A DNA stretch of 33,969 bases, from NCBI GenBank assembly GCA_022823765.1, contig JAJEHK010000038.1, positions 1 through 33,969 of the forward strand, given 5' to 3'. Of this stretch, positions 29,502-33,969 are shown one piece after another (the stretch's first letter is position 1; each line of letters begins with the position of its first letter). Position numbers and translations under genes: made by a program. The stretch comes from Alphaproteobacteria bacterium (GTDB taxonomy: Bacteria; Pseudomonadota; Alphaproteobacteria; SP197). Below the pieces are notes generated by a model. That model did not search any database. It was not told the origin of the DNA and saw nothing but the letters and a program-made list of their open reading frames with translations.

Positions 29502-29576
29502 GCCGAAGTAGCTCAGTGGCAGAGCAACTGATTCGTAATCAGTAGGTCGGGAGTTCGAATCTCCCCTTCGGCACCA
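29502..29576 (+). tRNA. tRNA-Thr (anticodon CGT)
   Basis: 75 bases including an encoded CCA. Acceptor arm GCCGAAG (29502-29508) pairs with CTTCGGC (29566-29572), discriminator A, then CCA. D-arm GCTC...GAGC is present, the anticodon stem ACTGA/TCAGT encloses the loop TTCGTAA with anticodon CGT at 29534-29536, and the T-arm contains GTTCGAATC. It reads the ACG codon for threonine, a frequent codon in GC-rich genomes. No terminator is seen in the 23 bases before the next ORF, so read-through into that gene is possible. Confidence 0.97.
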
Positions 29577-29599: not shown

Positions 29600-30733
29600 A
29601 TGGCCGCATTTGATGTCGTCATCATTGGCGCAGGCGTGGTGGGAGCGTCGCTCGCCTGGCGCCTTGCGTCATCCTGCAGGGTGGCGATCGTCGAGGCGGA
29701 AGACCAGCCAGGCTATCACAGCACGGGACGATCGGCGGCGCATTACACCGATGTGATCGGCGGCGCGGTCGTCCAGGCCCTCAGCGCCGCCACCAGGCCC
29801 TTTCTCGAGAATCCGCCGCCAGGGTTCACCGATGTACCCCTGATCAGGAGGCGCCCCGTTCTCCTTCTCTTCGGAACCGGAACCCGGGACGCAGCGTTCA
29901 CGCTTCACGGATTGAGCCATGTGATCGGGCACCAGCTCTTCGAACTTGATCGCGACGGGTGCCTCGAACTGTGTCCGGTCCTCAAGCCGGAGAAGATCCA
30001 ATCAGGGCTCTGGGAACCCGCTGCCGGCGATATCGACGTCCATGCCATCCACGGCGCCTATCTCCGGGCGGCGCGAGCGTCCGGTGCCACCATGTTCCTC
30101 AATGCGCCGGTCACTGAGATGGAACACCGCAGCGGGGTCTGGCACGTGACGGTGCCCGGAAAGACCCTCGAGGCGCCCGTCGTGGCCAATTGCGCCGGTG
30201 CCTGGGGCGATGTCGTCGGCCGCATTGCCGGGGCCGCGCCAGTCGGCCTCGTACCCATGCGCCGCACCGCCTTCACGTTCCGTGGGCCGAACGGCATGGA
30301 CCATGGCGCCTGGCCGCTGGTCGCCGATGATGGCGAGAGTTTCTACTTCAAGCCGGAGGCCGGACTGATCCTCGGTTCCCTGGCCGACGAACAGCCAAGC
30401 GAACCCTGCGATGCCGCGCCCGAGGAACTGGACCTCGCCCTCGCCGCCCACCGGATCATGGAGTGGACCACACTCGACATCCGGCGCATGGAAAGCCGGT
30501 GGGCGGGATTGCGAAGCTTCGTCCCGGACAGGCTGCCGGTGACAGGCTTCGACCCTTCATGTGAGGGGTTCTTCTGGAATGTCGGCCAGGGAGGAGCCGG
30601 AATCCAGACGTCCACGGGTCTGTCGGCCTATGCCGCCTCCGTCATCCTCGGCAACGGCCTGCCACAGGATCTCCTCGACGCAGGTCTGGATTCGGAAACC
30701 CTGTCGCCGTCAAGACTGGGTGGCGCCCGCTGA
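29600..30733 (+). CDS. FAD-dependent D-amino acid dehydrogenase, DauA-like
   Basis: Encodes 377 residues. GAGVVG (10-15) is the FAD GxGxxG loop. Sequence and length track Pseudomonas D-arginine dehydrogenase (DauA) as I recall it, without gaps over the first 90 residues: GYHSTGRSAAHYT, IDVHAIHGAYLRAAR, MRRTAF, ESFYFKPEAG, WAGLRSFVPD and GGAGIQTS. H48 and the positions of R222, Y249 and R305 (FAD/carboxylate contacts) are conserved. However, Tyr53 and Glu87, which hold D-Arg, align with Ile53 and Val87. So a D-amino acid with a neutral, perhaps hydrophobic or aromatic, side chain is more likely. The product would be a 2-oxoacid plus ammonia. Gene starts 23 bases after the tRNA. Confidence 0.85.
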   Translation: MAAFDVVIIGAGVVGASLAWRLASSCRVAIVEAEDQPGYHSTGRSAAHYTDVIGGAVVQALSAATRPFLENPPPGFTDVPLIRRRPVLLLFGTGTRDAAFTLHGLSHVIGHQLFELDRDGCLELCPVLKPEKIQSGLWEPAAGDIDVHAIHGAYLRAARASGATMFLNAPVTEMEHRSGVWHVTVPGKTLEAPVVANCAGAWGDVVGRIAGAAPVGLVPMRRTAFTFRGPNGMDHGAWPLVADDGESFYFKPEAGLILGSLADEQPSEPCDAAPEELDLALAAHRIMEWTTLDIRRMESRWAGLRSFVPDRLPVTGFDPSCEGFFWNVGQGGAGIQTSTGLSAYAASVILGNGLPQDLLDAGLDSETLSPSRLGGAR

Positions 30734-30767: not shown

Positions 30768-32156
30768 TCAGGCTGCGTCGAGCAGGCTCTCCTGGCGGAC
30801 GTACTCAAGGGTGTCGTCGAGTGCTGCCTTCAGGCGATCGAAGATCTGGTGAATCTGCTCTTCCTCGATGATGAGAGGAGGGCAGACCGCGACAGAGTTC
30901 CCACCGGCCGCCCGCACGATGAGGCGATGCGCGAGGCACCGTTCGCCACAGTAGTTGGCAATGGCGGGCGGGAAGTTCTCCCGGGTCCCCTTGTCCCTGA
31001 CGAGTTCCACCGCGCCGATGAGGCCGACACCCCTCGCTTCGCCGACGATCGGGTGATCGCCGAGGGCCATGAGTCGTTCCTGCATGACCGGTGCTATCCT
31101 GGCGACGTGGTCGGCGATGTTGATTTCGTCGTAGATCTTGAGGGTCTCGACAGCAACCGCTGCCGGAACGGGATGGCCCGAATAGGTGAAGCCTGTCGCA
31201 AACACGCCGTTTTCATCCGAAAAATCGCGAATTGGTCCATAGACCTTTTCGTTCACGATCACCGCACTGATCGGCAGGTAGGCCGAGGAAAGTTGCTTGG
31301 CGACGACCATGATGTCGGGCTTGATGCCGTAAGTGTTGGAACCGAACAGCTGACCGGTGCGGTGGAAACCGCAGATCACCTCGTCGGCGATCATCAGCAC
31401 GTCGTATTTCGCCAGCACGGCCTGGATCTTCTCGAAGTAGCCGGCGGGTGGCACGATGACACCGCCGGCGCCCATGACAGGCTCGGCGATGAAGGCGGCC
31501 ACGGTCTCGGGTCCCTCGGCGAGGATCATCTGTTCGAGTTCCTCGGCCCTTCGGGTCGCGAAATCCTCTTCCGATTCACCTTCCAGGCCTTCGTGGTACC
31601 AGTGCGGTGACCCCGTGTGCATGATGTTGGCGATCGGCAGATCGAAGCCCTGGTGCATCAGCGGAATGCCGGTGAGGCTGCCCGACGATACGCAGATACC
31701 GTGATAACCGCCGAGGCGGGCGATGATCTTCTTCTTTTCCGGCTTGCCGCGGGCGTTGTTGTAGTACCAGACGAACTTCACCGCATGGTCGTTGGCCTCG
31801 GAACCGGAGTTGGCGAACCAGACACGCGCCATCGGTGCCGGTGACATGTCGATCAGGCGTTCGGCCAGTTCGATGGACGGCATCGAGGAGCGGTGAAAGA
31901 AGGCGTGGTAGTAGGGGAGCTTGCGCATCTGTGCGGCCGCTGCCTGAACCAGCCGTTCGTTGTTGAAGCCGAGCGAGGTGCACCACAGGCCGGCGAGTCC
32001 CTCGATGTAGGTGTTGCCTTCGAGATCCTCGACATGGACGCCGTTGCCCTTCTCGATGATGAGCGGGCCTTCCCTCTCATGTGTCACCAGATTGGAATAG
32101 GGGTGGATGAGGGTTGCGGCGTCGCGCGCATGGGGAGAATTCGGGATGACGGTCAT
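30768..32156 (-). CDS. class III omega-aminotransferase
   Basis: Encodes 462 residues, with GAGGA 8 bases before the ATG. Fold-type I class III signatures: NSGSEAND (116-123) for PLP phosphate, GGYHG (149-153), ADEVICGFHRTG with Asp258, and Lys287 in VVAKQLSSAYLP as the PLP lysine, then TGFTYSGHPV. The N-terminal HPYSNLVTHEREGP and GLWCTSLGF resemble putrescine-, beta-alanine- or taurine-pyruvate transaminases ('aspartate aminotransferase family protein'). It moves an amino group from an omega-amine to pyruvate or 2-oxoglutarate. Substrate is not decided by sequence. Convergent with the D-amino acid dehydrogenase and divergent from the IOR gene; a polyamine or omega-amino acid role is possible. 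Confidence 0.92.
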   Translation of the reverse strand: MTVIPNSPHARDAATLIHPYSNLVTHEREGPLIIEKGNGVHVEDLEGNTYIEGLAGLWCTSLGFNNERLVQAAAAQMRKLPYYHAFFHRSSMPSIELAERLIDMSPAPMARVWFANSGSEANDHAVKFVWYYNNARGKPEKKKIIARLGGYHGICVSSGSLTGIPLMHQGFDLPIANIMHTGSPHWYHEGLEGESEEDFATRRAEELEQMILAEGPETVAAFIAEPVMGAGGVIVPPAGYFEKIQAVLAKYDVLMIADEVICGFHRTGQLFGSNTYGIKPDIMVVAKQLSSAYLPISAVIVNEKVYGPIRDFSDENGVFATGFTYSGHPVPAAVAVETLKIYDEINIADHVARIAPVMQERLMALGDHPIVGEARGVGLIGAVELVRDKGTRENFPPAIANYCGERCLAHRLIVRAAGGNSVAVCPPLIIEEEQIHQIFDRLKAALDDTLEYVRQESLLDAA

Positions 32157-32228: not shown

Positions 32229-32316
32229 CGCGGGCGGTCAATCGCGACTCGCCGGTATGGCTCATGACCGCTATGGTGAGAAGCATTCGCCCCTCCAGGA
32301 AAGCGGTCCTCCATTC

Positions 32317-33969
32317 ATGCCGGAAGGCGAGGTCAGCCTCGATGACAAGTACGTTCTTGAAGAAGGACGTGTCTACCTGACGGGCATCCAGGCCCTGGTT
32401 CGCCTGCCCCTGGAGCAGCGCCGGCGCGATGCCAGGGCGGGACTCGACACGGCGGGGTTCATTTCCGGATACCGCGGTTCACCCCTCGGCGGCTATGACC
32501 AGCAGCTCTGGCGTGCCGCGGAACACCTGGAAGAGCACCGCATCCACTTCCAGCCCGGCATCAACGAGGATCTCGCGGCGACGGCCATCTGGGGCACTCA
32601 GCAGACACAGTTGTTCGATGACGCACGCCACGACGGGGTGTTCGCCTACTGGTATGGCAAGGGACCGGGGGTCGACCGTTCCGGTGATGTCTTCAGACAT
32701 GGCAATCTGGCCGGATCGGCGAAGCATGGCGGTGTACTGCTGATTGCCGGTGATGATCACGGCTGCCGGTCCTCGACACTGCCGCACCAGAGCGAACAGG
32801 CCTTCGTGGCGGCCGGCATTCCGGTTCTCAACCCGGCGGGTGTGGCGGAGATTCTCGACTTCGGAATCATCGGCATGGAAATGTCCCGCCATTCGGGATG
32901 CTGGATCGGTTTCAAGACGACGGCGGACAACCTCGATGCATCCTCATCGATCGAGCTCGTGGCGGACCGGTCGATCATCGCACCTCCTTCGGTCGATCCG
33001 GTGCCCGGGGGGCTCAACATCCGCTGGCCCGATGACCCGATGCGCCAGGAGGAGCGCCTGCAGAACCACAAGCTCGGCGCCGCAAGGGCCTTCGCCCGGG
33101 CGAACCGTCTCGACCGCATTGCCGGAGGCCGCCACAGGGCGCGTCTTGGAATCGTGGCAGCCGGGAAATCGTGGCTTGATCTGGCCCAGGCCCTGGACGA
33201 TCTCGGACTCGATGACGCCGCGATGGAGGCTGTCGGTCTGCGTCTCTACAAGGTAGGCATGACGTGGCCCCTGGAGCCGGACGGGCTCGCCGAGTTCGCC
33301 ACGGGTCTCGAGGACATTGTCGTCATCGAGGAAAAGCGCGCTCTCATCGAAACGCAGATCAAGGAGGTTCTCTATCATCTGCCGGCGACGGACCGGCCAC
33401 GCGTGAGCGGCAAGCGTGATCCGGCGGGAACACCTCTCGTGGCGTCGGATGGCGAGCTGGAACCGTCGACAATCGCCCGGATCATCGCGCCCCGTCTCGA
33501 CGCGCTCACCGATTCCACGACCTTCGCCGGACGACTTCGTGCCCGCCACCAGCCAACCCCTGACGTGGAAGCGCCACCCCTTGAGCGCACGCCCTACTTC
33601 TGTGCCGGCTGTCCGCACAACACGTCGACCAGGGTGCCCCCGGAAAGCCGGGCCCTCGCCGGCATTGGCTGCCACTACCTGGCGCTCGGCATGAAGAGGA
33701 ACACCGCGACCTTCACCCACATGGGTGCGGAGGGCGCCTCATGGATCGGCCAGGCCCCGTTCGTCGACACGGACCATGTCTTTGTCAATCTGGGCGACGG
33801 CACCTACAGCCACTCGGGCCTGCTGGCGATCCGTGCCGCCGCGGCGGCAAACGTCAACATCACCTACAAGATCCTGTGCAATGATGCCGTAGCGATGACA
33901 GGCGGGCAGAGCGCCGACATCGATGTCAGCCCGGCCCGGATCGCCCGCCAGGTGGCGTCGGAAGGGGTA
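32317..33969 (+). CDS. indolepyruvate:ferredoxin oxidoreductase, fused type, N-terminal part
   Basis: Open from ATG 32317 to the window edge (551 codons), so absent from the track. Starts MPEGEVSLDDKYVLEEGRVY; an in-frame ATG at 32257 is also possible and neither has a good ribosome binding site. Seen: LTGIQALVRLP, GFISGYRGSPLGGYDQQLW (pyrimidine-binding), YGKGPGVDRSGD, an FCAGCPHNTSTR motif near residue 428, and NLGDGTYSHSG near 490, the Mg-ThDP site. This is the IorA half of the long fused IOR found in Proteobacteria (about 1150 residues); IorB lies beyond the window. It converts aryl-pyruvates or other 2-oxoacids plus CoA to acyl-CoA, CO2 and reduced ferredoxin. Confidence 0.93.
   Translation, partial: MPEGEVSLDDKYVLEEGRVYLTGIQALVRLPLEQRRRDARAGLDTAGFISGYRGSPLGGYDQQLWRAAEHLEEHRIHFQPGINEDLAATAIWGTQQTQLFDDARHDGVFAYWYGKGPGVDRSGDVFRHGNLAGSAKHGGVLLIAGDDHGCRSSTLPHQSEQAFVAAGIPVLNPAGVAEILDFGIIGMEMSRHSGCWIGFKTTADNLDASSSIELVADRSIIAPPSVDPVPGGLNIRWPDDPMRQEERLQNHKLGAARAFARANRLDRIAGGRHRARLGIVAAGKSWLDLAQALDDLGLDDAAMEAVGLRLYKVGMTWPLEPDGLAEFATGLEDIVVIEEKRALIETQIKEVLYHLPATDRPRVSGKRDPAGTPLVASDGELEPSTIARIIAPRLDALTDSTTFAGRLRARHQPTPDVEAPPLERTPYFCAGCPHNTSTRVPPESRALAGIGCHYLALGMKRNTATFTHMGAEGASWIGQAPFVDTDHVFVNLGDGTYSHSGLLAIRAAAAANVNITYKILCNDAVAMTGGQSADIDVSPARIARQVASEGV

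Follow-up and report, generated by a model that had tools for sequence, protein, structure and literature searches.

The closest described counterpart of the enzyme discussed here is the D-arginine dehydrogenase of Pseudomonas aeruginosa (DauA or PaDADH; structures 3NYC, 3NYE and 6P9D), in which the side-chain pocket ends in Tyr53, Glu87 and Glu246. As described in PMC11193025, Glu87 contacts the guanidinium group and its carboxylate is required for the binding of D-Arg, which supports what the earlier note had said about this residue. For D-Leu, ionisation of Glu87 is not needed in PaDADH (PMC11193025). Glu246 also interacts with the guanidinium, and joint binding by Glu246 and Glu87 has been proposed (PMC11193025, PMC10655190).

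A relative of this enzyme is encoded in the window, i.e. the whole stretch of 33,969 nucleotides that was analysed. The gene, with its predicted function, and the codons of the pocket residues (numbering of PaDADH) are located as follows:

29600..30733, + strand: predicted FAD-dependent D-amino-acid dehydrogenase of the DauA family (Pfam DAO PF01266, E 3.5e-50)
29741..29743, + strand: His48, as in P. aeruginosa DauA
29747..29749, + strand: Thr50, kept; hydrogen bond to the guanidinium in PaDADH (PMC9996824)
29756..29758, + strand: Ile53, in place of the gate residue Tyr53
29858..29860, + strand: Val87, at the site of Glu87
30263..30265, + strand: Arg222, predicted to bind the carboxylate by homology to PaDADH, invariant
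30326..30337, + strand: loop L2, D243-D244-G245-E246, whose E246 provides the second carboxylate at the guanidinium in PaDADH (PMC11193025, PMC10655190)
30344..30346, + strand: Tyr249, kept
30512..30514, + strand: Arg305, predicted to bind the carboxylate by homology to PaDADH, invariant
30596..30598, + strand: Ala333, in place of Tyr333 of loop L4

The window protein and PaDADH

The open reading frame of the dehydrogenase (377 aa, ATG start, one uninterrupted frame) is conserved with 90-96% identity in three genomes of the same genus and with 64-68% identity in nine more genomes of the same family; it is a real gene. No NCBIfam model naming its protein was found. On the model of DadA (NCBIfam PRK00711), which it resembles in its FAD and in the D-amino-acid oxidation predicted for it, the protein scores 46.8 bits where 383 would be required, and no protein of the source genome scores above this cut-off. 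Paralogues in the source genome share at most 32% identity with the window protein, which is thus the genome's sole DauA-type enzyme. The DauB/ornithine cyclodeaminase family is represented in this genome by four full-length genes, located elsewhere and unlinked to the dehydrogenase gene.

Residues 4-374 of the window protein align to PaDADH (PDB 6p9d/3nyc; phmmer, E ~1e-89) without any gap, just as the earlier note had assumed, and 157 of 371 positions are identical (42%). The next PDB family in this search is dimethylglycine dehydrogenase (E ~1e-15). As the alignment is free of gaps, the numbering of PaDADH can be used directly, and the register is safe, fixed as it is by R85-P86 for position 87 and by T50 and G54 for position 53. 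A structure predicted from a 39-row alignment (mean pLDDT 93.9) superposes on 3NYE with a TM of 0.95 and 1.7 A, and a fold search with this structure yielded D-arginine dehydrogenase with E ~1e-53 versus 1e-28 for the next hit. The full-length ungapped homology, the shared fold and the carboxylate clamp R222/Y249/R305 of the DauA-type sequence family are all found in the window protein, which also agrees with PaDADH in length and FAD motif.

Among the pocket residues H48, T50, R222, E246, Y249, G303 and R305 are identical to those of PaDADH, whereas Tyr53, Glu87 and Tyr333 are replaced by Ile53, Val87 and Ala333. The Ile and Val named in the earlier note, as well as the kept positions H48, R222, Y249 and R305, are therefore correct. 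Its statement that the D-Arg contacts are lacking goes too far, however, as the guanidinium-contacting residues E246 and T50 are both kept (PMC11193025, PMC10655190, PMC9996824). The far end of the pocket reads Ile53/Val87/Glu246 in the window protein, and loop L2 reads ADDGE instead of the VSLDE of PaDADH. An acidic residue should lie near the side-chain pocket of the window protein. The earlier note had regarded such a residue as a point against its own reading, and with E246 kept and D243/D244 as extra acids in loop L2 this objection applies in part.

Residue 87 across the family and the clade of the window protein

Homologues were taken from the window's order, its class, other Proteobacteria and a named genome collection, which gave 145 usable sequences after one (L171) had been excluded for a misread frame. 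Glu87 is present in 12 of these 145, a proportion that is not a population frequency, since the sampling relied on similarity to either PaDauA or the window protein. All twelve are Pseudomonas-type DauA proteins with at least 67% identity to PaDauA. The other homologues contain Ala (50), Val (37) or else C, T, S, M, I, L, W, Q or N at this position. R222, Y249 and R305 are nearly invariant, and position 246 is acidic in 140 of the 145 family members. On a tree with 104 rows, Glu87 appears as one change within the Pseudomonas-type DauA branch (support 99). Judged by this tree, Pseudomonas-type DauA has gained Glu87 and Ala or Val is the family default, which reverses the loss of Glu87 that the earlier note had proposed.

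The flanks of the homologues (1.5 to 8 kb, with some contigs ending sooner) were searched with the DauB and DauR sequences that adjoin a P. aeruginosa dauA, dauB being the adjacent gene there. DauB and DauR adjoin 10 of the 12 Glu87 genes, DauB with 67-72% identity outside P. aeruginosa itself. Homologues without Glu87 had just two weak DauB matches nearby (25% and 22% identity), and no DauR was found in their flanks of 1.5 to 8 kb. These co-occurrences of Glu87 and dauBAR are not independent events, because Glu87 arose once. L164 and L165 are Glu87 homologues which, unlike the other ten, showed no DauB match in their 1.5 kb flanks. The linkage of DauA proper, present for PaDADH, is missing in the window, where no match to DauB or DauR was found.

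Unnamed DauA-family oxidoreductases of Alpha-, Beta- and Gammaproteobacteria, annotated as 'FAD-binding oxidoreductase', resemble the window protein in their non-acidic residue 87, their acidic residue 246 and R222/Y249/R305. They differ from it in having mostly Tyr53 and Tyr333, usually Leu or Met at position 48, and at most 50% identity. A third kind of pocket, with Leu53, Trp87, Ala333 and the acid at position 240 (Glu240), was observed in a separate clade of the DauA family (L111, L113, L128).

The window protein and 12 relatives of the same bacterial family (64-96% identity) group together in a single clade (support 100, stem 0.71), outside of which identity to the window protein does not exceed 50% in the sets searched. 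On the 104-row tree this clade stands, with support 100, apart from the E87/dauBAR branch. Ile53 occurs in 13/13 clade members and in 0/132 sequences elsewhere, and Val87 is likewise present in 13/13, which is not due to chance. Asp244 is found in 12 of the 13 and never among the 132, and Ala333 in all 13 and in 6 of the 132; all clade members have Asp243, and E246 is present in 12 of them, including the window protein. His48 (14/145 homologues) is shared by all 13 members and elsewhere by P. aeruginosa only; as the tree counts these occurrences as two changes, the agreement with P. aeruginosa looks convergent. Several further residues are clade-specific, none of them with a known pocket location. 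At the sequence level, Ile53 is the feature which sets the window clade apart, together with Ala333, Asp244 and His48. Two marks of DauA proper, Glu87 and the gate Tyr53, are replaced in the window protein by Val87 and Ile53, and another, Glu246, is present, yet near-universal in the family.

Genomic surroundings

Three further features of the window lie around the dehydrogenase gene:

29502-29576, + strand: tRNA-Thr (CGT), ending 23 bases before the dehydrogenase start
30768..32156, - strand: class-III (omega) aminotransferase (Pfam PF00202, NCBIfam PRK06105), convergent with the dehydrogenase gene
32257-33969: indolepyruvate ferredoxin oxidoreductase gene, near the aminotransferase gene

The stop codons of the dehydrogenase and aminotransferase genes are separated by 34 bp. 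Ten of the 12 clade relatives (L137-L139, L141-L146, L148) likewise have the aminotransferase on this side, between a few tens of bases and about 4 kb away. The contig of L140 ends too early to show it, and L147 exhibits a match of just 82 residues (49%) at the expected place. In L142 (11478-12862) the match comes in two pieces that overlap, suggestive of a frameshift in the genome or the assembly. The opposite flank contains tRNA-Thr and hemY in the group of the window and large genes in most other relatives, those of L148 being an RND pump according to a family search. That the pair stayed together while one flank changed suggests a functional link between dehydrogenase and aminotransferase; the two genes may also be neighbours by history only. 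The position of the tRNA-Thr gene just before the dehydrogenase gene is shared only with L137-L139, the three closest genomes.

An RND efflux pump, located beside the gene in L140, L143, L144 and L146-L148 (as judged by gene size), was considered as functional partner and rejected because it is absent in the window. In L143 (5293-9214) a family search identified a penicillin-amidase gene, which has the orientation of the dehydrogenase gene and overlaps its end, and a GH3-like gene after it, and L146 (5466-9327) has genes of similar size at these places (size and position only). As such genes between dehydrogenase and aminotransferase occur in one genus (L143, L146), they are not general and were discarded as partners. 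Linkage of the indolepyruvate ferredoxin oxidoreductase was restricted to the two 90% relatives with contigs long enough to include this site. An aromatic substrate, which this neighbour might have indicated, was not retained, as the linkage was not found in more distant clade members with sequence on the aminotransferase side. The gene context of the dehydrogenase points to no particular substrate.

Probable substrate and relevance for the family

With moderate confidence, the window protein is taken to be a D-amino-acid dehydrogenase which belongs to the DauA family, though not to its D-arginine branch, and which would prefer neutral or hydrophobic D-amino acids. This explanation draws on the alignment, the fold, R222/Y249/R305, the restriction of Glu87 to one branch and the presence of dauB/dauR with 10/12 Glu87 genes. 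Specificity for D-arginine is unlikely, given the missing dauBAR context and the placement outside the E87 branch of DauA, and guanidinium binding should weaken with a pocket end of Ile53/Val87/Glu246. The changed substrate predicted by the earlier note is upheld to this extent: a neutral D-amino acid is plausible, whereas an aromatic one found no specific support. Among characterised enzymes, none with I53/V87 in its pocket was found.

We infer the catalysis, the substrate, the electron acceptor and the metabolic tie to the aminotransferase. By homology to PaDADH, the substrate would be held at the flavin by its alpha-carboxylate, which R222, R305 and Y249 would clamp; its alpha-amine would be deprotonated and a hydride transferred to FAD, and the imino acid would be released and hydrolysed, giving ammonia and a 2-keto acid. 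A respiratory acceptor would presumably take up the electrons. Strong guanidinium binding would be lost at the Ile53/Val87 end of the pocket, favouring neutral or hydrophobic D-amino acids, and weak activity on basic ones may persist through Glu246 and Thr50.

What counts against a neutral preference is that E246 and T50 are kept and that loop L2 has the extra acids D243/D244, so that basic D-amino acids may bind well. The dehydrogenase could even still prefer D-Arg, D-Lys or D-Orn if Glu246 and Asp243/Asp244 replaced Glu87. E246 contacts the guanidinium in PaDADH and is retained in nearly the whole clade, and Asp244 is specific for it. However, an acidic residue 246 is so common in the family, mostly without dauB, that it is not a marker of D-Arg; in addition, dauB/dauR are not nearby and Tyr53, the partner of E246, is gone. 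Such a preference is therefore unlikely, although it deserves some weight. It is also rather doubtful that the substrate is another carboxylate-bearing amine (N-substituted, cyclic or opine-like) within the glycine/sarcosine oxidase fold class. Glycine oxidase, sarcosine oxidase and dimethylglycine dehydrogenase share the fold according to the fold search, and the smaller residues in place of both Tyr53 and Tyr333 may enlarge the pocket, but D-arginine dehydrogenase structures are closest by far in that search and none of the alpha-amino-acid residues R222, Y249 and R305 is missing. That the protein is a true, merely diverged DauA orthologue, as its fold, its length and H48 might indicate, is highly improbable in view of its separate, long-stemmed clade far from the E87 branch, the convergent H48 and the absent dauB/dauR linkage.

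Variants E246L and Y249F of PaDADH react with oxygen. Going beyond the preference for neutral or hydrophobic D-amino acids, it can tentatively be proposed that the I53/V87/D244/A333 clade is an uncharacterised subfamily of D-amino-acid dehydrogenases with a specificity of its own, which may share a pathway with the aminotransferase and, considering its non-polar active-site residues, might react with oxygen. The survey points to naturally occurring enzymes with non-polar pockets, on which ideas about substrate choice and oxygen reactivity could be examined. For the family as a whole, Glu87 being a single gain restricted to one branch and tied to dauBAR implies that the name D-arginine dehydrogenase should not be given to most genes annotated by similarity to DauA. 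Glu87 plus dauB is offered as a simple test in two parts for such annotations.
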